From the NCBI GenBank assembly GCA_002189035.1, contig NEEC01000016.1, forward strand, positions 744,001 through 808,000: 64,000 nt of DNA, read 5' to 3'. The DNA is from Utricularia gibba (Eukaryota; Streptophyta; Magnoliopsida; Lamiales; Lentibulariaceae). The translations under genes were made by a program, and so were the position numbers. The notes under the pieces were generated by a model. The model was given only the letters and a program-made list of their open reading frames with translations, had not been told where the DNA came from and searched no databases. Positions within the stretch are counted from its first letter, which is position 1. Each line of letters opens with the position of its first letter. This document shows positions 39,404 through 58,345 of this stretch, piece after piece.

Positions 39404-41953
39404 TTAGGGAACTGTCATAACTTGAATGGACTGCAACGTGTCGGTGACGGTGATCACCAGATCACCAGGCTTTATCAGCCCTCTGGCTTTGAGCAAGGAG
39501 AAGGTCTTGTTCAGGTTGCTCTCCATGTCATCGGCAAGCGCCAATCGGAAGGGCATCAGCCCCCATTGCAGGTTCAGTCGCCTGCGCACCGATGTGGTCG
39601 TGGTGAAGGCGAAGATGGGGCAGTCGGGGCGGCATCTTGACAACAGAGATGCCATGTGGCCAGTGTTGGTGTAGACGAAAATGGCATCAGCCTCTAGTTT
39701 GTTCGCTGCAGTATGTGATCGCAAGCATTAGTATGTAAAGGACAGTGCGTTTGACTGATTATGAAGACAGATTCTTCTTACCCATTTTGGCTGCACAGTT
39801 GCAGATCTCTTCTGAAATGGTGTCTGAGAAAGAAGATGCTATGGCAGGGAGTTCCTTCATGTCATGGTGCTTCTCTTCCCTCCACCATTTCTCAATTCTC
39901 AAGCTGACATTTCTGAGAACAGTCAGTGCCTTCTCGGGAAACTGGCCCATGGCAGACTCGCCGGACAACATCAATGCATCAGCTCGCTGGCGAACAGCCT
40001 CCGAAACATCGGCTACCTCCGCTCGAGTGGGTGTAGGATATTCTATCATCGACTCGAGCAACTGGCTGGCAACAATGACCGGCTTGTTTAATTGCCTGCA
40101 GACTTGAACAACCTTCTGCTGTTCAGATGGAACCTGCTCCAATGGTACTTGTGCACCCATGTCTCCTCTTGCAACCATTGCTCCATCAGACACTTGAATG
40201 ATCTCCTCCAAGTTCTTTAATGAGTCGATACTTTCAATTTTGGCGATTATAGCAATGTCTCTGCTTCACCACATGAATTCAGAAGTTGCAGAAATGGCAA
40301 AGAAAGATCCAACACCAAAAGGATAATGAAATTTAGTTTATGAATCACAACATACGAGTTTCAATCGCTCTAGCATGCAATGTTTGCTACTTCACGACTC
40401 AGAAACATGATACAAGTTAGCAAATGGAGAATGGCGTTTAGAGAATACCCTTCATGCGCCCGAGCTTGAATGTAGCTCTTCAGGTTCTTCAAAACTTCAG
40501 CAGATCTCACAAATGAGACAGCAATGAAGTCTACACCCTCGGTAATTCCAAAGTCAATGTCAAGCCAATCCTGACAAGCAAGCAATACTTAAATGAAAAT
40601 ACTGATATATGTGACTCTTGCAAGACTAAAATATAACCTTAAGTGAACCTTTGAGGAAATTGTAGGAAGCATTGCATTACGCTCCCTAACTAAGCTGCCA
40701 TCACGCCAGAACGTAAGATTGGCTCTAGGCAATAGACGCCCAGGATCAGTGCAGAGACACTTTACATCTGGACCAATCTTCTCTATCACCTCAAACCTGA
40801 CCATCCCACCATCCACCAGAAGTTCATCACCTACCCTTACATCTGCCAAGTGAGAAAGATTTGATCTGTTACCAATGCACACGATCTTCGCCATATTCAA
40901 GTATGGCTACAGCCAAACTCACAGCATAAATGCATGAAACTAGGACCTTAACCTTCTGCAAATCCATCATAGCTCACATTGATAGTTCGTTCAGGGAGTC
41001 CCGTGTCAAATACCCGAACACTAAAAGTCCATATCTCACCATCCTGCACAAGTGTGCATACTAAATTGGAAGTCCTTGACATCAACTAAATCGTGTAATC
41101 AGTAAAACCATCACAAGCCAGCCAAGATAATTTGGCACTCCTTTTCATTTCAGTGGTCTGCCTATTCCACACTATGGACATATGAAATACTCAGCAACGT
41201 ACAAGAAAAAGGGGAAAACGTTCAGAAAAACAACTTCTTTCAGAAATCTAGAACTAAGAAGGAGAAATGCAGCCAGAAGTTGTGATTTTTAACCTTATAA
41301 GAAGAATATGTTAAGAGGACGATAGTTCACAAGGCTGATGATTGACAATGATGAGCTTTCATAGCAATACCTTGATCCAAAGAACATAAGAGATCAAAAG
41401 GGCACAGTCTAAAACGTACCTCTGTTTTGACAGAGGAAGCACCACCAAGATCGCCCATGTGAATTTCACTACCCTCCGTGTCCATCATAATCGCAACCGC
41501 GTATCCCTTCTCCTCATTCAACTTCCTCACCCGCTGGATCACTTGCCTATGCCATTCCCTCGTCCCATGGCACATATTAATCCTGGCCACATTCATCCCG
41601 CCCACAGCCAACGCCTCCAGTTGCTCCGGCATACACGTCGCCGGCCCAATCGTACAAACCAACTTTGTTCGCCGCGTGCTGCGGAACCCATTCTCCTTGA
41701 CTTCCGTCTCCGTCACCGCATCCACCTCAATCGAACTGGCGTCGGTAATTGCCGAATATGGCACTGTAGCCAACCCAGAGCCGTTTTGGAAAGTTAGCCC
41801 TGATAGATTCCCATCCGATGCTGAAGCTCTGATCAAACAGGAGGGAGCAAAAGTAAGCGGCAATACGCGTTGAAGTGGCGGGTGTAGCGGCGAAGTGTAG
41901 CCGGAGACAAGAGCTTTAGCCGCGGAGTGCAGATTCAGAGACGCCGCTGCCAT
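39404..41953 (-). CDS. PKP1: Plastidial pyruvate kinase alpha subunit (isozyme A)
   Basis: Converts phosphoenolpyruvate and ADP to pyruvate and ATP in plastids, feeding fatty acid synthesis; in Arabidopsis the alpha subunit pairs with beta subunits. Exons 41953-41420, 41043-40953, 40842-40649, 40570-40449, 40260-39782 and 39705-39404 keep phase, 573 residues. An N-terminal transit-peptide-like stretch (about 1-75, Ser/Ala/Leu-rich) precedes [20 protein letters not shown]. The substrate and metal segment is [20 protein letters not shown]; the active-site helix reads [40 protein letters not shown] and [10 protein letters not shown] follow, then an [21 protein letters not shown]-domain, ending SIQVMTVP. 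The MDTEGSE motif, replacing MDTKGPE, is typical of the alpha type. The start is [10 protein letters not shown]; the longer upstream frame begins with GTG. Confidence 0.96.
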
Positions 41954-42925
41954 TTCGGAGGCGGAGATCCTGAGATTGAAGTGATTGATAATGACAGTGA
42001 GAGAATGACCGTGACGGGCGAACACTCCGCTTAAAAAAAAAAATACTTTTTTTCAATATTTCTACACGCGTCACGCGCTATTAATTTATTATTTTTTTTA
42101 AAAAAATGTATGGTCACCAAATATGAAGCCCACGAGAAGCCCAATCGTGACCCTCCACCAAATCCCAACAATTTAATGGGCCGGTATCTGACAAATTATC
42201 GGCCCATAATTGTGTTTTTGTATTTCATTTTTCAATTTAATTTAAAAATGATTTTAAATAAATTTAAGCTTAATATATGTGAATGTATTAAAATGTGTTT
42301 CATTGTATAGTATACAATACTTATATCTAAGTTTACACATAAACCAATATTTGATTAGTTAACATATATATAATAATCTTATATAACTACACTATTTCCA
42401 TAATCTTTTAAGCATGTAAGCTTCGGATAATATACATAAATGGAGGGAGGGGATTAATTATATTTATACCACTTATATAATCATATTTATATTTTTAATA
42501 TCAAACGTTATATTTAATTGAATATATATATATATATATATATAATTATATTATATTTAAACACACTAATTCTTTATTATAAATTGATTTCTTAGAAAAA
42601 TAGCTATTCTCCCTTGAGTGTATGAGAAATTTGGGCACTGCATATATAAATAATAGATTGTAATATGTAATATAAAAAGGTAGGATGATAAATTTTATAA
42701 ATGGTCACAATATAATTATTTATTTCTCAAAAAAATGGGAGAACATGTTTAAAACCTTATAATATTCAAAAACATTTTTAAAACCAAGTAAACTTACTTT
42801 TCTGGACGGCACAACAGCCACCAGATCTGCTTTCAATGCCATCATTTATTCAGCGACTTCGGTGTCATAATGAAGTGCACATTGCCACCACCGGACCCAG
42901 CTCCTTATCCTCCTGGAGTCGCGCC
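41954..42925. other. Intergenic between pyruvate kinase and ADH-like genes
   Basis: AT-rich from 42030 to 42800, with a (TA)n run near 42524-42543. Both genes start on either side, so the region must contain divergent promoters. No other gene is seen. An in-frame ATG at 42836 could extend the ADH-like protein by 30 residues. Confidence 0.45.
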
Positions 42926-45684
<2,759 letters not shown>

Positions 45685-46758
45685 CCGGTATATGGAGTCG
45701 GGTCGGGTCCCTCGAATATCACCCGGACAAAAGAACCCGGTGATGTTTGACCTATGTTGAAATTAAGTGGTTTTTTGTCCATGCCAAAAATTAAAACTTT
45801 ATAGTATACATTTATCGTACTTCTAACGTTGATGTAATTTTCATCATTGTTTTAAATTTTATAATCTTTTTAGTTTTGATTTAATAAGTTTTATTAAAAA
45901 TATTAGATTTAGATGATTATTTTTATTTTTCATAATATTTTTATATACTAAATATATCTCAACATTAATGACTCCAATTCAACTTAAAGTCATTTGTTTT
46001 TTTAAACATTGATTTCTATTAGAAAATATAAAATTCAAAATAATGAAAATATTTTTTGGAATATTTTTTTTGTATGAATAATTTTTGTGATTGAAAAAAG
46101 TATTTTAAAACTAGTTATATGAAATAGGAGCTACTTTTACTTTAAATGAAATAAAATTTTTAAAATATTTATTAATTTTAGTAAATTATACAGATAATTT
46201 TTATTTAATTTACTTTTGACAAGTATATCCTTATTAACTCCATGGGTAGATCTCAACAGCGTGTGTACGGAATGTCCAATGTTGTAATTAACTGCCTTGT
46301 CAGAGAAGCGTGTGTACGGTATGGCTGGTCTGAACCGTGTGTTGACCGGTGAGTGTGAACTCCGACCATGCAACCGCCCAGCAGTCGGTCAATGCCGGAG
46401 ACACGAATTGTCTTTCGGTATAAAGCAGACGAATCTGCATCATCCAAAGCACACTTTGGCTGATCTTTACGGGCAAGTAACTCGTGATGGAGACCTTGAT
46501 TTCCAAAAGCACCGCGGGCTCTGTGGATTCAAGGAAGACTTCTGATGCAAATCATTTTTTTAGTGCAAACCCCAGATGCTTTCTCTGAAAGTAGGACCGA
46601 AGGGTCTTACTTTTCCATGAGCATCTAGATATGGATGATGATATACAGTCGTGAGTGATGATGATTATCAGGAAAATTCTTTCCCGTGTGTTGTTGTCGT
46701 CTTCCTGGTTGTGTTGGGGTACAAATAGCTTTTGAGGCGATTGCATCAGTAGCTGAGA
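45685..46758. other. Intergenic between ADH-like and calmodulin-like genes
   Basis: AT-rich to about 46230, then a more balanced stretch (46240-46540) in which GCGTGTGTACGG occurs twice (46258-46269 and 46307-46318). This is probably the CML upstream region. No gene is supported. Confidence 0.4.
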
Positions 46759-47570
46759 ATGGAGGGAGGAGTAAGCCATGAGCAGATGCTGGTGTTCCGG
46801 GCTTTTTTCGATCTGTTCGACAAAGATGGTGATGGTAAGCCCCGATCCTCGTCGGAGTTTTAATGGAAACTGGTGGGCATTCCCCCACAATCGGATCGAG
46901 TTCAGAATTTGTGCTGTTTTGGGGTTCCAGTATGTTGGGTAAGAAGCCGGTTTCTCTTGTAGGACACATCACTGCTGAAGACTTAGCCACGGTGGTCCGA
47001 TGCCATCTAGGTCGGAATCCGACGGCCGAAGAGCTCCAACGCATGATCGACTGTGCCGATGGTGACGGAAACGCGACGATCGAGTTCTCGGAGTTCCTCA
47101 ACCTCGTTGCTGGCAACACTCAGGTGGGTAGGGAAATATACATCCCTTGCACGATCACGCACACGCACAAACGTCTCAGCTACATCAGTTACCTGAGAAT
47201 ATCTAATGTGTATGCAATGCATGTGCCGGAGATGTTGATTCATGGTATTCTTTCACTTCGCAGGCAACTGATCCAGAGGAGGAACTCAAAGAGGCCTTTA
47301 AGGTGTTCGACAACGACCAGAATGGCCGCATATCACCCGACGAGGTCAGTCTGTTCTCCTCGGAAGCGAAGCAACTGTAACCTCCTTGGGAAAAAAGAGG
47401 ATCCTTTTCAAATGTTTTTGGTTTTGCGAGTGCAGCTCCGCATGGTGATGATGTCTCTGGGGGAGAAACTGAGCGAGGAAGAGGCGGAGCAGATGATAAG
47501 GGAGGCCGATTTGAATGGAGATGGCCACGTTGATTACCAAGAGTTTCGAAAAATCAACTGGATTCTGTAG
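46759..47570 (+). CDS. Calmodulin-like protein (CML8/CML11 type)
   Basis: Calcium sensor with four EF-hands and no other domain. Exons 46759-46834, 46963-47123, 47264-47344 and 47436-47570 give 150 residues. Loops: DKDGDGHITAED (EF1), [12 protein letters not shown] (EF2), [12 protein letters not shown] (EF3) and [12 protein letters not shown] (EF4). EF1 has Asp instead of Glu at position 12, which usually lowers calcium affinity or shifts preference to magnesium. EF2 has Ala at the usual Gly position 6. EF3 and EF4 look canonical. Linker helices AEELQRMID and [13 protein letters not shown] follow the calmodulin pattern. The intron inside the EF1 loop codon (GAT G|GT) is the usual place in plant calmodulins. 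The C terminus KINWIL replaces the normal KMM tail. Confidence 0.92.
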
Positions 47571-48965
47571 CCCGTACTCACGTTCCCGATTGTATTTCTA
47601 TGTTCATTTGATTCTTCGTTTTTTTCTCTTCAAATGCAGAGCAAGAGGATTAGTAAATAATCCGCTCTGATGTAGCAATTAATGACTGTAAAGAGTTGGA
47701 AAACAGTGTTAACTGAATGAAATCAATGCATCCTGACGAAAAGATGGAACTGGGTGTGGGTTTTTTTATATCCCCGTTGTTCTTGAAATCAAAAAGTCTG
47801 AAGGAACCCTAAAAACCACCGTGAAAACTACACCACAAAGAGCAGAAGCAGCTTGCATATGGAGAGCAGGAAAAAAACAAGTGTAAACGAAAGAACCCAT
47901 GGAATCAGGACACGAGGAGAGCAACGGGGACTCACTGTCATGAAACCCTAATGTTCTGTCTGTGTGGAGACAAGGAGCGTGAGATGAGACTGCCGCATGA
48001 TCTGATCTTTCCCCATGAAGATGATGGATAGTTAAGATCAAGCTGGCAGCTTCACCACACGCTGCTCTCTCCCATTCAACGCTGCTCCCTACTTACAACA
48101 CAACTCTCCCTCTCTCTGTATTCACACTCTTCCTCAGGAGAAGAGGATATATATAGAGAAGGGAGGGATGAGTGCCCCAAAAGTGGGCACTGTTCTCTCT
48201 TTTATTCTCAAACTCCCATGGGTTCTGTATCCCAATTGGGTTGCAATACACCCCTCTTGAACCCATCATTTGGCAATGTTATGTGCATATACGCCACATT
48301 TCTAAAGTAGGCACCAATGTTGAATAAATTCCAGTCTTGCTATATGTTGTTACTACACTTCGATGGAAGATCAGGGGACATTGTGAAGTACAGACAGTGA
48401 GATTTTTACTTGGCATGTTCATTTATGAACCCTGACTGTTGTTCTAAGGGAATGGGAGGGACTGTCTGAGCGACCGCCTTCAGTTTTGAATACCAACCAA
48501 CCAACAAGCAGAGAATTAGTTAATGCGCTTACTACAACTCTACATGGCTTGGCTGCCTGCCCAGCTGCAGGAGGAGGAGCTGCTGCTGCTCTGCCAGAAC
48601 CCAACTGGTTGCTTACCAAGAAGATCAATCAAGTCGGCCAGCTGGAGATTTGAGTCTTCGAAGGTGGAAGAGGCATCCCTCATCCCTCCCCTTTAATTCG
48701 TACGTTTGCTTGCTTTATCAGCTGCAGGAATTGGTGTAGAGTTGCAGCAGATGCATTCAATTTAGAAACCCCTCTTCCTGTTTCCGTTCTTGTCACCCAA
48801 TTAACACTTCTGGAGACACTCAGCAGCTTTAATCGATCTCGCTAAGGCAGCCCTCCTGCAAAACGATTCACATCCCACATGTTGTGCTCTGTACTACACC
48901 CATCACTAGTAGTTTACCCTCGTGATATCATCTTCTGCTGCTAATGCACACCACTTTGGATTTCG
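47571..48965. other. Intergenic region with no recognised gene
   Basis: Balanced composition with a TATA-like ATATATATAG at about 48146-48155 and a short hairpin AGTGCCC-loop-GGGCACT at 48171-48191. A non-coding transcript is possible, but no known microRNA mature sequence was recognised. Open frames are short and unlike known proteins. Confidence 0.3.
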
Positions 48966-49685
48966 GAGTTAATTGGGGAACTAGCCCTCTGCAAAAAAAC
49001 AGGTTTGATGAATGGCCCTATCTGGAAATTCTTGGCTATTTAGCCCTACTTTTTGTAGTTATTATCTAAATAGCCCAACTTTTAGTATAAATAAAAATAA
49101 TTAATTATTGATTACGAAAAATAATAATAGAAAATCAAATATATATTTTATATATATTTATTTATTCATTAAATTTTATATAACCAATATATAACTAAAT
49201 ATATATATAAAATGTATATTTGATTTTCGCCTGCTTGGATTCTTGATGTTAGCTCGGTGCAGGCACAGGATGGAGACATAGGCAGGATGTGGAGAAGGTT
49301 TGAGTTGAAGGGGGAGATACCTGTCTCCAGATCCTTTCATGGTGCTTGCGCCGATCCATCAGGGCGTTTCTTGTACCTCTGTGGCGGGATGGTGGATGGA
49401 GTGGTGAACCCGGCTGATTCCTATAAATTTTTAAATTTATGTTTTTAGCTATATATTAATTATATAAAATTTAATGAATAAATAAATAAATAAATAAATA
49501 TATATATATATAATGTATATTTGATTTTATATTATTATTTTTCGTAATCAATAATTAATTATTTTTATTTATACTAAAAGTTGGGCTATTTATATCAAAA
49601 AAATAGGGCTAAATAGCTAAGAATTTCCAGATAGGGCCATTCAGCAAACTTTTTTTTTGCAGAGGGCTAGTTCCCCAATTGACCC
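48966..49685. mobile_element. Pack-MULE-like non-autonomous transposon with captured gene fragment
   Basis: A 720-bp element with long terminal inverted repeats of about 240 bp (48966-49203 and 49446-49685). The left end reads GAGTTAATTGGGGAACTAGC; the reverse complement of the right end reads GGGTCAATTGGGGAACTAGC. The arms continue matching through CCTATCTGGAAATTCTT and AATTAATTATTGATTACGAA. A 10-bp direct repeat TTGGATTTCG flanks it (48956-48965 and 49686-49695), a size that fits Mutator-like elements (8-11 bp). It carries no transposase. The central ~240 bp holds a kelch-type coding fragment. Long inverted repeats, a terminal G, the duplication size and the captured host sequence together fit a Pack-MULE. 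Confidence 0.85.
49227..49421 (+). pseudogene. Captured kelch/galactose-oxidase-like gene fragment
   Basis: A 65-codon open stretch inside the transposon, encoding a kelch-like segment with SRSFHGACADPSGRFLYLCG followed by GMVDGVVNPAD. The HGA, DPSGRFLYLCGG and D pattern is the kelch blade motif. It starts and ends inside the element without its own initiation context or the rest of a propeller, so it is a transduplicated fragment of a host gene elsewhere. No intron is visible within it. The frame is still open, suggesting recent capture. Confidence 0.65.
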
Positions 49686-49695
49686 TTGGATTTCG

Positions 49696-50353
49696 TACAG
49701 TTTTGATGAAAATTAGTTTATAAAATACCAAATTTTTGATTCAGATTACTTTGTCATAATTGTGATATTATATTATTAGTTGTTATTTGATTCGAGTAAT
49801 TTCCTTCTAATCAACAAGGGTTGCGGTAAAGCCTCATCAAAATTCATTTTTTTACGCAAAAAGTGATCTACTCAATTTAAAACGTACCAAATGATAGTAT
49901 GATAATATTTTAATCAATAGTTAATAATCATTCAATTTATATATTTTATTTTGATTAAATATTATTATTTTTTAATTCTAAATGTGTATTACATTTTAAT
50001 TCAATGCAAATAAGATATAATGTTCGTATATCTTCTTTCTAACAATATGATAAGATGTATTTTACAAACTAAATCCAAAATTCAGTCCTTTACAAACTAG
50101 TTTTTAGAAAAACTCTATATTATTAATTTACTCATTTTTTTTCTCAATACTGTCGACTTGTTCTATTTGGTTCACGGTTTCATGATGTGGGCATGCCCAG
50201 TGATCGTTTACAAAGGAAGATATGCACATAGAGTTCAAGTTCATCATCACTTGGGCTACACGAACCCATTTATTTCCATTTTGCATAGCCATCTATGGAT
50301 CAGATCAGATCAGATCAGATCATGCTTGTAACATTTTGCAAGGCTCTCTGGGA
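49696..50353. other. AT-rich intergenic region with a (GATCA)n microsatellite
   Basis: AT-rich sequence downstream of the transposon. A pentamer run GATCA x5 lies at about 50298-50322, just beyond the TSJT1-like stop codon. Nothing else is recognised. Confidence 0.5.
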
Positions 50354-51483
50354 TCAGAATTTACCTGACCAGTTCGCGTCGCTTCCGACTCGAGGCATCC
50401 CGGTTTTGCGCTTTCCCGAGTCCTCGTCGACTTTGAAAGAGATCCCGCACACGTCGCCGGAGCTGTCCACTCGTGGCACGGCCTTCAGCTCACTGACAGG
50501 GTGCTCGTAGCTCTGCAAGCCCCCGGAGGAAGTGAAGAAGCATCCTGAAGGGTAATGAAAACAGGGGCATCAAGAGATTTTAAGGATCTGTGGTTTTCAC
50601 TGATTGATCGAATGAAACCCACCTTTGGGGAATGATGCGAAGGACTTTCCACAGCATTGCTTCACAGCTGTGTCCTCATTGGAGACAACGAGATTACCTG
50701 CAGCATCACTCCCCCAGAAGAAACGTGCACTCCCCTCTGCATCCTGCGCCAATTGGTGAGCAGGAGTTGTGAATGTGGGCGGCTTAATAATGATGCAGGG
50801 GATGTGGTTCTGAACTTACAGAAGCCATGAACACTGATTTTGAAGTGAGGTCGAATAGGATGAAGGCGAACTTTCCTGTGATGTCCCTCATGACTTGGGC
50901 AGCAGGGTAGGGAGCTCTGTCCCTCAAGGTTCTGTAAGCCTCAATCACAATGATCACCTCATTTGCTGTCTTGTTTAGACCATACTGCTGCTTGAGAAGT
51001 GCTATGCTTTCAATATGGCCTTCGAATATGCAGAATATGTCGTCCACCACTCCGAACAGCCTGTCAGAAGAAAATTTCCAAGCTGCTGATGAAAGAGATT
51101 ACAAACAGCATGAAAAAGTGGGCATAGACGATGATTGTCCAAAAGGGGTCATGCGAATTTCAATTTTCAGAGCAGAGTGAGTTCAAGGGAATCACATTAT
51201 TACAGATCAGATAATCAGCAGTAGTATCATCAAAATTCTACGGACGAGAACAAAAGGAAAGCCTGCGAATTGACCTTGGAGATAGTGGGTTCTGTCCATG
51301 GGAGGTGTAGGCCATGAAGCCAGCTGAAGGGAGCCTGATGAGGACGGAACCCGGGTGCACAGAGGAAAACTGGGTCGCCACAAGATCATCTTTTAGAGCA
51401 GAAACAGGAACTGCAGCAGGATCGGCGTGGAGGAGTAGTGCATCCGGAGTTTTCGCAACTGATCTCTCGAACACGGCCAACAT
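50354..51483 (-). CDS. Stem-specific protein TSJT1 / aluminium-induced protein (YGL and LRDR motifs)
   Basis: Member of the plant DUF3700 family, which has a glutamine amidotransferase type II-like (Ntn hydrolase) fold and is induced by aluminium, sugar starvation or auxin; the molecular role is unknown. Exons 51483-51275, 51060-50820, 50743-50623 and 50544-50354 give 253 residues, the family norm. It starts MLAVFERSVAKTPDAL. The naming motifs are both present: YGL in KQQYGLNKTANE and LRDR in RTLRDRAPYPAAQV. Other conserved parts are LFGVVDDIFCIFEGHIE, GKFAFILFD and ARFFWGSDAAGNLVVSNE; GCFFTSSGGLQSYEHP is close to the C terminus. Cys2 is absent, so amidotransferase catalysis is unlikely. It resembles Arabidopsis At3g22850 as recalled. 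Confidence 0.94.
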
Positions 51484-51791
51484 CCCTTAACTTTTTGTTC
51501 TCCGACAAGATCAGATAAGATATTGGGAGTTGCTTTGACACCTAAGTCGCCCTTCGAGTTCCTTCAGTTGTACACAAAGTCAACGGGAAACAAAATAGCA
51601 ATTACTACAAATACAATAGCATTTATTTATTCTCTGTGGATTGTCAACGAGCATGATGCACATCTCACGTTTCGACAACTCTCAAATGAACAAATAGCTA
51701 TGGCCATTTAACAAAGAAATGCGTAGCTGTTTCATACTTCTGAAGGGTGCGTATAAGTACTGTACAAGAAAATTATTTCTGGAATCTGATG
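51484..51791. other. Gap between the TSJT1-like and dymeclin genes
   Basis: About 300 bases that must hold the TSJT1-like leader and promoter and the dymeclin 3'-UTR, both minus strand. No other feature. Confidence 0.4.
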
Positions 51792-54700
51792 CTAGTATTC
51801 GTCATAGACATCTTCATCGCTTGGCAGCCTCTTCAACTGATGCTTCTGTTCTGTGGTGTTGTCCTGAAGGTCATCAACGTTCATTTTAAGATGAGCAGTC
51901 AATTTTCTGACAAAAAAACAAGAAGCATGAAGCATGGTAGGAACTTACATCAACTGCCACGGGGAATAAGTGTATGCTCGCAGGATTGAAACTTAAATGA
52001 CTGCATGAAACAAGGTAAAAAATGGTGATTACGTTTCTGAAAAAGAATGCGGAGAGAAAAATGATATATCTACCCTTTTGACAGGATAAGCTGCCACACA
52101 TAAGGAATAAAGAATTCCTCGGGATGCTTCTCTTGTTCGTAGGTGAAATGCAACTGGGAGAACAACTGTTCAAATAGTGAAATGAAGTGTCATACAAGGA
52201 GAAAAAGGAAGCAGCAAATCACACAAGTTGTTTTTCCTTACTTTCATGCCCCCTCCCCTCCATGATCGGCTGTGATTTATTATCACTTGGAGTGCCTTCT
52301 CGACAGACCAATCACCCTCAGTCTTATCGGCATCAACTCGGCTGTTAAAGAAATCCAGAACCTGTGATGGGGGTGGGTGAGAGGGGAGGAATTAGGATAC
52401 GAAGAAAAGGGGAGGGGGAGCTTGTTCTCTTTTTTTTTTTAGAGCAGGCAGAGCTTCTTCCAACAGTGCAAAAGCAACTTTTCGAATGATTAAAAAAATA
52501 TTAAGGAAATAAAAAAGGATTCAGAGTTCTACTCTATGAAATACTCACGGTGTATATGTTCTCCAGCAGCTCACTGAAACGAGGATGATTTTTGAAAGGA
52601 AGAAAAACTTCCTGCCTCTGCATAATCGCATACACAACCTGGAAAACCAGTCGGCAGGAGCACAGTTAAAGAGGGAAAAAAAATTGAACAAGAAGGAATC
52701 TCATTCAAATGAATTCACTCACCTCAGGGTTTCTCGGTAATGCATAGGTTAGAATTGCATTCAAAATCTCCAGCACATGCCTCAAAAAATCAGCGCATAT
52801 GTGCAGGTCTGCGGACTTCAAAATGGTACATGAATCTCAACAAATATTCGTTTGGTTTTCAGAAAACATGGTAAACTATAGAAAAACTCCATTACAGTAT
52901 CATCCTGAAAGTTGTCTCCTATGAGATCACCATCTGCCGTTATCGTTTTGGCATTTTCAATTTCAGCAAGTTTATTGTACCTACATATTGAAACATTTTC
53001 ATGCAACTTAGACACATAACTACAACACGATAAGAGAAGCTCAACTCATGCGTGACTACATTACGAGTAAGAAGCTGGAGGGAGGATCAACATACTTGCG
53101 TGAAAGCATATAGAAAAGGCTAACCAGCCGCTGTGATGCATATGAACTAAGACGATGTGCATGTGGTGCCATATTTGCCAAAGTTGCTAGACAGCTGGTA
53201 AGGAGATAAACATCCTGTTTCAATGCAAGGCAAACTGAATTGTTTTATGCAATCAGAGAATACTGCAACTTTAAAACTATCCAAAGCGGAGAGAGCAAAT
53301 GTCTAACCTGCATTTTGGAAAGATTGTATCTTACAGTCCTAATCAAGATTACAACCATAAGAGAGCCCAGAGAAGTTTGATTAAGGCGGCGCTCCATATA
53401 CCAAGAAATATTGGGAAGAATCTGCAAAAGAATACGTTCTCAAGCTTCAGCTTGAAACAGCCCATAATAATGAGTCGGGGAAATCATTTACCACTTTGTG
53501 AATACTGGCACTGAAACAGGGATCTTGACTTAGAATGAGCAAGATTACAAGCACCATATAAATATGATTCGGTGTCTTCGCTGGAGCATTATAAAGAGTC
53601 TCGAGCATCGGCATCAACTGTTATCATGAAAAAGGAATGATCTGAAAATTGTTGAAAGCAGAAAATAACATAAATGTAAGAGCATAAACACTGAAAATAA
53701 TACAAGCAGCAAGATAAAAAAAATGTCAAAAACACAAGAAATAACTTATTAGTGAATAAAAATTCCTGTAATTGGCGGAAAATGAAGCCAATGTGCAGAA
53801 AGTTTATATTACCATATCTAAAAAGAATATAATAGGCAATTTAGATACTGAGAAACATGGAGGACCAGGGAGTGGAGTTCACTATCTACAATATCATTAT
53901 GCAATTAAAAACAAATCTCAAGATTCTTTATGAAAAAAACTTCAGTCTTTCGGAAAGTGAAATCACAACCACATAACTTACCAGCATATCAATATCAGTT
54001 CGCACTAGAGTATACTCTAAAAAACTTGGATTCCCGTGTACAAGAAGATAAAGCATCAGGACAGAGGTTTCATCTGCCAAGAACCTAAGAAAACAGTAGA
54101 CACATAAATTAATGCATTCCATACAATCATTATAACTCAGGGATCATCACAATCCATCACCCGAGCACTTACATGCCAAGACTGTCAAATAGAGATGCAA
54201 AAGGTATCCTCACAAGTGGGAAACTATGTGCATTAACCTCAAGATCATTGCGATCAACTGCAAGAACATACAGAAAAGTACATGTTAAACAATTTGATTG
54301 AATAGAAAAAATTAAATCACCCAAATAACAGTTGTACAGTTTCACATTACATTCTGTATCCTGAACATTTTCTAATGCTCTGCAGAAAGGATTTTCGGAA
54401 AAGCATGTCTCTTCCTTCTTGAAAGACTCAAAATTGCTGTTTTCCAGCCTGTCCTGAATATATTTTTCTGATTCCCTTCGACGGTAATTGCACAGCAAAA
54501 GTAATACATTTAGGCTCGCATCAGCTAGCGGACTTAGGGAAGCTTCACCTTTTGAGCTGACCAAGTAGTGCAGTGGCAGCCGTATCAAACTTGCTGCAAG
54601 CATACGAATGATGAGAACCATCTCACAAGCTGAAATTAGTTAAGATTAAAAAAATATAACGTAAATTGTTTCCGTTTGCGTTCATTATTCATGTGATGCA

Positions 54701-56132
54701 ACTTGCAAAAGAAGAAAGCATGTGTGCCGAAAAACCATACCTGCTGCAAAACCAACCTTCAATAATAAGCTAGTCTCACTTCCTTCAAAAGGTAATTGAG
54801 AAAATGAATTTTTCAAAGTGAAACGTGGCCTTATTAAATAATTCATCAATAACTTGCGGACCACCAAATTGACCACGCTGCGTTCCTACAGAAACCGGTC
54901 TTTATTCAGAGGGAATAAATGATTCATAAGAAAAAAAAAAAAGAAGCTTTTGCACTCAAAGGATCTTACCAAGATCATTCCTGAATCAATAAACGGGTGT
55001 ACGTCATTTGGTCCTGCTGATGGACCAGAGAGAAGTTGTGTTGACATAGTGATTGCTATGAAATTAAGAAGTTGCTGATGAAGAAGATAGGTTCCAGAAC
55101 TACAGGAAAACAAATACTTTAAGAGATAATATCTAGGCAGTTATGATGTAGTGACAACAAAGTTAGACAACACCAGCGGTGGCTCCATCAAAGTGAAACT
55201 AACCATTCTAGCTTACCTGACATCAACTGTGCCAACAAATTTAAGAACACTGTGCATCACTTGGCTCTCAACTCTTTCTCCTGTATCAAAAGTGTTAAAC
55301 AAATGAATAGATAAGGATCGAAAAATCTACTGAACATTGCACAGCAGCAAAAAGAAAATGGGAAGAAGAAAAAAAATTGATACTGGAAGGCGTTAACAAT
55401 GTAGAAAATAAAAAAAAAAGGTTGAAAACGAATGTGTAACCTTTGGAAAAATTCTCTGGGAGAGGCTCTGTTTCATCCAGGCAGAGGTAGAGTTCTTCAA
55501 AGTTGTCACTCTTAGACTCCTCAATGAGATATTTAAGAAACACGGATGATATACACACAGCATTCAGAGCTCTCGAGAAGGCAGGGGATGACGATGAAGC
55601 AGAAAGACACTCTTGCAAGCACCTTGCTAAGTGAATCAGTATCTTTGCAAGATGTCGCGTGCTGTGGTTATTCGTGGCTGAAGATATCCCACGTAAGAAG
55701 CATTAATCAAACAGGTATCGGAAAAACGTAAAAAAAAGGCCGGGTATCTCCAAATTAGCCCGCCAATTTGCTCGAGTTCAACTCAGATATCGCATGTATA
55801 ATAGAAAACGTCGAAACCCAACCTCCTTGACACTCAACAAGTAAAGCACAATTGATGCATAACCAATTTCGACGTCAAAAACTAAACACGGGAAAATTTT
55901 CGCGCAGGCAGGCTTTCATAAGGGTAAGAATGCACAAACCGAGATGCTGGCAAGCGTGGAGAACGCGATCAGATCGCCAGCGAAGATCTAGAGGTAACTC
56001 CAGAAGCTTGTTCCAGTAATCAGAAGCCAAAGGAAACGATTTCTCTCCAACAAATTCCCCGATCAAATACTCCGCCGTCTCCAGTGGCCTAACTTCGCCG
56101 CCCAGCCGCGGCGACGACGCCACTCCGCCCAT
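51792..56132 (-). CDS. Dymeclin (Dyggve-Melchior-Clausen protein homologue)
   Basis: Golgi-associated protein needed for normal Golgi organisation and trafficking in animals; the plant role is little known. Eighteen exons keep phase: 56132-55940, 55677-55441, 55280-55217, 55099-54970, 54885-54741, 54593-54351, 54257-54173, 54084-53982, 53617-53492, 53421-53308, 53214-53096, 52980-52896, 52815-52723, 52638-52549, 52361-52242, 52165-52074, 51991-51949 and 51863-51792, totalling 717 residues. It starts [12 protein letters not shown] (Gly2, a possible N-myristoylation site as in animals). Conserved segments: [79 protein letters not shown] and [16 protein letters not shown]. Leu-rich helices run throughout. 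The frame upstream of ATG 56132 begins with GTG. Confidence 0.93.
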
Positions 56133-56664
56133 GCTACGCTCCGAAATGTTCACCTAAAACGACGAAAATCGTACAATTCAGTTTACAAATTGTGCACCAC
56201 CGCCACGAATGACGGAAGTCAAATCTGGAATTTCTCCGATTGATCCGAGAAACTTTTGGTTTCTGTTCCAAGAGCTCTTTCACAGGCGCCGCGATCCAAT
56301 ATGCCAAGTACCGTTTTGCCCTTCCAGTTTTCCATCCTTTTTCTTTTATTAATTAATTTGCCCAAAACGCAGAGACAGACCTCCTTAAATAGAATAACAA
56401 TACTTGTCTGATTTCATTCATACAAGTTGTCCCCGATAGCTTCTTATGGTACATCAAAATCAAGAGAAGGAAGAAGCACACACTTCCTTGTAAGGTCCCG
56501 CCCGGGGAAGGGTTGAAGTAATAGCCTTAAACGAATCTTATATTGAACAGAGGAAGAGGATGAGATTAAGTAGAAATTACTACGTAAATATTTCACTAGA
56601 TGCATCCTTCTTGACAAGATTTCTATGCTCCTGCAGTGGTTCAACTCTGTTTCTGAAATGCTAA

Positions 56665-56967
56665 GAATATTTTCAATGGTTTCCGAAAGTATGCAATGTC
56701 ATGTCATTTTTACTATATTTTCGAAAATCTAGTTACTAAATTTTCATGTTATTTACAATTATTTCAGTAACATAAATCATTTTCGAAAATATGAAGTGTC
56801 ATCTTTTTATGTTTATTTTAATGGATTTTCCTAATGAAAATAGAAATTCTATTATATGGAAATCCGGAAACAAAACTACATACATCTAACATCTAATGAT
56901 TTCCGGAAATCTAATAAATCAAATGAAAATAACATATATATTTCCATCGAAACGGTTGAAGATGCTC
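56665..56967. mobile_element. Tourist-like MITE candidate (TAA target site)
   Basis: A 303-bp AT-rich element between TAA direct repeats (56662-56664 and 56968-56970). Imperfect terminal inverted repeats: left GAATATTTTCAATGGTTTC against the reverse complement of the right end GAGCATCTTCAACCGTTTC, 14 of 19 identical. A 3-bp TAA duplication and GAGCATCTTCAA-type ends are usual for PIF/Harbinger Tourist elements. No coding capacity. The TIR is diverged, so it is an old insertion. It ends 21 bases beyond the terminal stop codon of the TPR pseudogene. Confidence 0.55.
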
Positions 56968-56988
56968 TAATGACAGCATTGAGTTCTT

Positions 56989-58345
56989 CTAACACTGCTT
57001 GAATAAACGAGGGAGAATTTCATGCACGCTGATGTCCAACAGAGCAGGATCCATAGGCATAGATGTGGTTGATGAGAAAGAGATATGATGCACGTATGAT
57101 GAAGAAGATGTAGATGATTAAACCTGTAGAGAGTCCCGCCCTTCTCAGTAGTGATTGGAACAAACCACATTTTACGCATCCCAAGTGATTCGAATTGGAA
57201 AAAGAATCCATCAATCTGTGATCCTTGTCCTTTCCACAGCTTTGTACACCGACAATGACTTAGTTTTGCAAAAGGCGCCTTGTCAGATTCATTAATAGAG
57301 TAAAATACTTGCAAAAATGCACCATGTGACATGGAATAGAAAAATAATTTGGATTTTGGAAACCAAATGCACCTGGGGAATGGATATTATGCTGAAAGAA
57401 TCTTCAGCATACTGCCTGAGAAATGTAAAGCAGCTGCTGTGTGTTTGTGAAGATTCAGAGGCCTGACATTTCAACAGAATATTAGAATTCACGAGTAGGC
57501 GGGGAGTTTGTGAAAAGTAAGCATATGCCAGACGAAATGAAAAAAAAAACACCTTCTCAATACTGGCAGCAGGTGCACACTTCTCAGTGTCAGCAGGAAA
57601 TAAACTGTAGGCTCCACAGTGGAATTCTGATGACAAGTTTTTATGGCATTATCTACAATTTCAGTGGTGAAAGAGAATATCTTTTTTAAGTTATTTTTGT
57701 CTTCATGTTTCCCATAGTGCAAATAAAGTAATTTTTTCAATGAGCACGGCCCATGATTATGTACACAAGCATTGAAGCTGAGCAAAACGGAAAACTGAGT
57801 GTGAAAATATTCAATCCTTGTGTTTACTAAAAAGGAAAGTTGAAAAGTTGAACGAAGAACAAGAATACAAGTAGCAATTAAGTGCAGCCTGAGATTCATA
57901 TAAAACCAAATAAAATAGGATATGAACAGGCCACTGAATGGATGACATTTGACTCACCAGTTCAACGTTTGATCGCATAGTCTCAAATTCTACTGCTCTA
58001 TTTACCTCTTGCTATCTGTGTAAGCTTCTTGATTTTTTTAGCCACCTCCGAACTTTATGCGTTATGCTTTAAAGAAACCTGGAAAGCGTCTAAAGCCTGT
58101 ACCAATAATGGCCAGATTCCATTTTTGTTTCTTTTTAACAGGTGACCATATTACGGTCGTATCGTTCCATAACTTCCAAAACACATACTTTCCTGAAATA
58201 ACTCTGAACAAACAATCAAAAAAGATTCAATATAAAGATCATATGAGATTATTGGAATAATTCTATCCACCAAGAAGCGTACCTTTTCCCAATCTGGTTT
58301 CAGAGTAATAGCCATCTCGGCATCAGCAAGCGCTTTATTATGTGA
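56989..58345 (-). pseudogene. Decayed TPR co-chaperone gene (TPR3-like)
   Basis: Remnant of a tetratricopeptide-repeat protein like Arabidopsis At1g04190 (TPR3). Recognisable pieces in order: KALADAEMAITLKPDWEK (58337-58284) with a good donor; SYFRKVCVLEVMERYD (about 58216-58169); ALDAFQVSLKHNA, a stop, SSEVAKKIKKLTQIARG (about 58097-58006); FSFTTEIVDNAIKTCHQNS with a frame slip before ADTEKCAPAASIEK (about 57675-57554); THSSCFTFLRQYAEDSFS (about 57441-57388); WKGQGSQIDGFFFQFESLG (about 57233-57177); and DPALLDISVHEILPRLFKQ (about 57051-56995), stop at 56989. Damage: the in-frame TAA at 58055-58057, deletions in several exons and the missing N-terminal TPR exons. It lies between dymeclin and NET1. 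Confidence 0.85.

Follow-up and report, generated by a model that had tools for sequence, protein, structure and literature searches.

Results

A 720-bp inverted-repeat element between two genes

The window, by which we mean the whole stretch of 64,000 nucleotides of Utricularia gibba DNA that was analysed (C402:744001-808000), carries an EF-hand (calmodulin-like) reading frame on the plus strand at 46863-47570 and a DUF3700 gene on the minus strand, running from about 51483 to 50784. Since the element described here lies between these two, it interrupts no recognisable gene. It occupies 48966-49685 and is flanked by perfect 10-bp target-site duplications (TSDs), TTGGATTTCG, at 48956-48965 on the left and 49686-49695 on the right; a first-pass annotation had proposed a 720-bp element with terminal inverted repeats (TIRs) of about 240 bp and a perfect 10-bp flanking repeat, and this was borne out to the base. 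An inverted-repeat search placed the left TIR, which starts with GAGTTAATTGGGGAACTAGCCCTCTGC, at 48966-49209 (plus strand) and the right TIR, whose outer end read inward is GGGTCAATTGGGGAACTAGCCCTCTGC, at 49450-49685 (minus strand). The two TIRs, of about 225-245 bp, are 94.7% identical to each other across the outer 225 bp, gaps aside, and, as arm alignment showed, the right subterminal stretch at 49425-49449 is common to non-Pack members of the family, the ends of which read GRGTYAATTGGGGAACTAGCCC. The arms enclose a junction filler (49201-49231) and a captured 193-bp piece of an F-box/kelch exon (49232-49424), the GC content of which is 53% against 20-23% in the arms. With no transposase and only this kelch piece within its 720 bp, the element is non-autonomous. 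A search of Rfam with window positions 40000-58000 gave no matches.

Immediately to the left of the insertion, at 48710-48896, there is a GC-richer, non-coding-looking stretch that matches C505:1410697-1410922 at 68%, the match ending about 60 bp short of the insertion; this stretch may have arisen by duplication of an untranslated or regulatory region.

Sister copies and relatives sharing the TIRs

The first-pass annotation suggested looking for further copies of the TIR, and a search of the whole assembly (100.09 Mb, 516 contigs) found the terminal 26-mer at about 10 loci with two mismatches or fewer, while the reversed 26-mer, used as a control pattern, had zero matches even at three mismatches. 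With the element as query, three further copies of full length were found, at C402:1421033-1421743, C412:2368464-2369187 and C328:1254627-1255361 (93, 91 and 89% identical to the window element, respectively), in which both the cargo and its junctions are the same, and host-gene cargo within this type of TIR was found only in these four kelch elements. The C412 and C328 copies have perfect 10-bp TSDs of their own, AAGCAAATCA and TTTTTTGAAA, respectively. No recognisable TSD was found at the borders of the C402:1421033 copy, perhaps owing to a later deletion. Because there are three other full-length copies, two of them with different perfect TSDs, a chance structure is excluded, and the four copies with their common junctions show that the cargo travelled together with the TIRs. 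An empty paralogous site was sought in the same genome using the joined flanks; beyond this locus, the search gave only weak matches that did not span the site.

The assignment to the Mutator-like class, which the first-pass annotation had proposed, was confirmed by a relative of 5,357 bp at C451:5083993-5089349 (L032:694-6050). Its arms and those of the window element are 85-92% identical, its 10-bp TSD has one mismatch (GAATGTAAAA/GGATGTAAAA), and it encloses a MULE transposase domain (genome match C451:5086224-5086520) that passes the curated threshold of PF10551, at E 1.3e-10, and the gene for which is decayed, its frame being broken by stops. Since this relative with the same TIRs contains the transposase, the window element belongs to the Mutator class. 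At two further loci, a MULE domain lies no more than 3 kb from related TIRs (C413:3530723/3533672 and C4:1460708/1463137), and perfect 10-bp TSDs flank the window, C412, C328, C2:3661008 and C304 copies. AT-rich arms such as these can yield inverted repeats by chance, and one might imagine a duplicated gene fragment that happens to lie within such a repeat, or an element of another superfamily such as CACTA, hAT or Helitron; however, the independent copies with 10-bp duplications and the MULE transposase between the same ends leave practically no probability to a non-Mutator origin, as do the duplication sizes of these other groups, which are 3 bp for CACTA and 8 bp for hAT elements, Helitrons making none.

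Other members with these TIRs have no host cargo. The AT-rich interiors of the elements at C2:3661008 and C1:878141 are 95-96% identical to the C451 interior beside its left TIR, and the interior of the C4:2918498 element matches the same region; since their interiors match that of the transposase-bearing relative, these three members are plain deletion derivatives. For the same reason, the C2 and C1 interiors were rejected as extra gene captures. A search for a helper with an intact transposase gave, after the C451 relative, closest protein matches of 70-77% identity.

PF10551 matches number at least 150 genome-wide in this compact 100-Mb genome, several of them in long open frames of 500-816 codons. 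Elements of about 1.15-1.18 kb make up a sister subfamily, comprising L018, L020 and L023 (C304, C321, C3) and L035-L037 (C1, C2, C451); between its C304 and C321 members and the window family, TIR similarity is 78-86%, and the C304 element has a perfect 10-bp TSD, TTCAGGTGAC. At C321:1304629-1305842 (L020), a TIR end of the window type directly adjoins a related element of 1.18 kb, an arrangement that resembles the nesting of one MULE within another's end.

The donor of the kelch cargo

As the first-pass annotation had suggested, a genome search identified the donor kelch gene. The 193-bp cargo, in the sense orientation as read, is 97.9% identical to C413:3569543-3569735, within an F-box/kelch gene on the minus strand of an unlinked contig (C413:3569483-3570921). 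The reading frame of this gene is intact, with 448 amino acids in two exons, GT-AG borders and no stop, and its protein has an F-box at the start followed by kelch repeats. The captured piece falls within exon 2 and ends ahead of the stop codon, and identity ceases at both junctions. The annotation had counted 65 open kelch codons: the frame is indeed open, but what was captured spans 49232-49424, or 64 codons, and no gene resident at the insertion site has these as an exon. With host-gene cargo, a donor on C413 and four copies with common junctions, its Pack-MULE-like reading of the element held.

By protein search, the donor is effectively single-copy, save for an inverted and truncated duplicate at a distance of about 20 kb (G000:C413:3549747-3550878; L029:948-2079), which is 99.1% identical over 1134 bp, retains the intron and terminates inside the stretch captured by the Pack-MULE. 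No TIRs of the window-element family were matched around this duplicate. The second kelch-like copy, at C413:3550821, was rejected as the source of the cargo, as it runs through only 58 bp of the captured sequence before ending. The window copy is marked by differences of its own at cargo positions 68, 130 and 178, whereas position 152 is the sole difference from the donor that is common to all copies, with T in the donor, which encodes Cys-Cys-Gly, and G in the copies, which encode Cys-Gly-Gly. Since kelch repeats typically carry a double glycine, it may be the donor, not the copies, that changed here.

A TIR-derived filler at the capture junction

The sequence at 49201-49228 matches the reverse complement of TIR segment 49130-49157 at 27 of 28 positions and also resembles 49500-49528; it is followed by three extra bases, GCC, and then by the cargo. 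None of 5000 dinucleotide shuffles equalled this match, the best reaching 25. All four kelch copies have the filler, and it is absent at the inner ends of the three relatives without the cargo that were examined, cargo-free or transposase-bearing. A filler, extra bases and foreign DNA in succession would be the expected trace of template switching in interrupted gap repair, so that this one junction points to gap repair as the route of capture. Gap repair is one published model of gene capture (PMC4858842), the mechanism of Pack-MULE acquisition having been described in 2012 as yet to be understood (PMC3310237).

Timing of the capture and the burst

An alignment of the four copies over 700 ungapped columns showed 49 private changes, 10-14 per copy, and the five sites that divide the copies two against two conflict with one another. 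Private change amounts to about 1.75% when the full element is counted; for the cargo alone, with 13 changes in 4 x 193 positions, the figure is about 1.7%. The four copies thus form a near-star, and since the divergence is equal in arms and cargo, it suggests a single capture followed by a closely timed, short burst. Substitution rates in other plants are 7e-9 to 1.3e-8 per site per year, and with these the age would be about 1-3 million years, though the host's own rate may differ. The first-pass annotation had argued for youth from the similar arms and the open frame. We agree that the insertion is probably young, but arm similarity is the weaker argument because the arms of other, more diverged family members are also 84-95% alike; the 97.9% match to the donor is the better sign.

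Reading frame and possible function of the cargo

The captured frame of 64 codons is open in the window element, where an in-frame TGA, part of the element's own sequence, lies immediately upstream of the cargo. The first in-frame ATG over the cargo is at 49287, giving a longest ATG-started frame of 53 codons plus stop at 49287-49448 on the plus strand, which is probably no gene. The openness of the frame in three of the four copies could be taken as a sign of exaptation, with selection maintaining the cargo as a mini-gene of 53-64 codons that encodes part of a kelch blade. Such a mini-gene is very improbable in view of the in-frame stop in the C412 copy, the stop right upstream of the cargo and the small part of the kelch propeller that the cargo holds; moreover, of the 13 private cargo changes, 8 are amino-acid replacements or stops, where about 75% would be predicted in the absence of selection, and the probability of so few is 0.15-0.26. 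Since one copy has a stop and the changes look neutral, we take the open frame to reflect recent origin, not function, and the cargo probably has none.

The single-stranded element folds at -353 kcal/mol, 28 s.d. below shuffles, and the four copies hold 193 bp about 98% like a single-copy donor. Together with the regulation of parental genes that has been proposed for Pack-MULEs (PMC3310237), these properties would suit a long hairpin whose small RNAs silence the donor gene in trans. However, the kelch part lies in the loop, outside the stem, so that processing of the hairpin would by itself yield small RNAs of the TIRs, and we consider this role unlikely. That the four-copy family makes small RNAs or antisense transcripts of the kelch cargo that regulate the donor F-box/kelch gene is likewise decidedly improbable.

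Discussion

We conclude that the element is almost certainly a Pack-MULE, a non-autonomous Mutator-like DNA transposon bearing a host-gene fragment, with the following history. An ancestral member of the small TIR family would have lost its interior, and the gap under repair would have received a short stretch copied from the element's TIR and, after it, 193 bp of exon 2 of the unlinked F-box/kelch gene. The resulting 0.7-kb product was presumably mobilised in trans by the MULE transposase of a relative with the same TIRs, giving at least four insertions, each of which would have made a 10-bp target duplication, and the copies would then have decayed neutrally. Two observations count against this explanation: the C451 relative, decayed and with arms 85-92% like the element's, is at most a candidate helper, and the C402:1421033 copy has no recognisable TSD.

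In a literature search, Utricularia gibba and Pack-MULEs came up together in passing mentions only, and no title or abstract found for Pack-MULEs and kelch describes this family. The case is a clear but ordinary instance of a well-known process and leaves the general picture unchanged. It is nevertheless cleanly readable, in that donor, transposase-bearing relative, cargo-free relatives and four sisters are found in one compact plant genome. The complete set dates the capture relative to the burst, the junction filler speaks for template switching in gap repair, and both filler and completeness make it a good teaching case.

Pack-MULEs have been defined for rice, maize, Arabidopsis and tomato (PMC3310237, PMC4858842), and the window element shares their properties: they are non-autonomous, with TIRs of 100-500 bp and TSDs of 9-11 bp, and contain a fragment of a non-transposase host gene, the cargo being GC-richer and one capture giving several copies. 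There is no difference in kind; the window element is of small size (0.72 kb), and its short cargo comes from a single exon. By contrast, the non-autonomous MULEs at C2:3661008, C1:878141 and C4:2918498, which have the same TIRs, differ from it in their AT-rich interior, derived from the transposase-bearing relative, and in having no host-gene cargo. The PM-ZIBP Pack-MULE family of tomato (PMC3310237) is similar in that one captured fragment was amplified into a small family and the parental gene can be identified; unlike PM-ZIBP, however, the window element is without tandem duplicated TIRs and has only the 28-bp inverted TIR filler at one junction.
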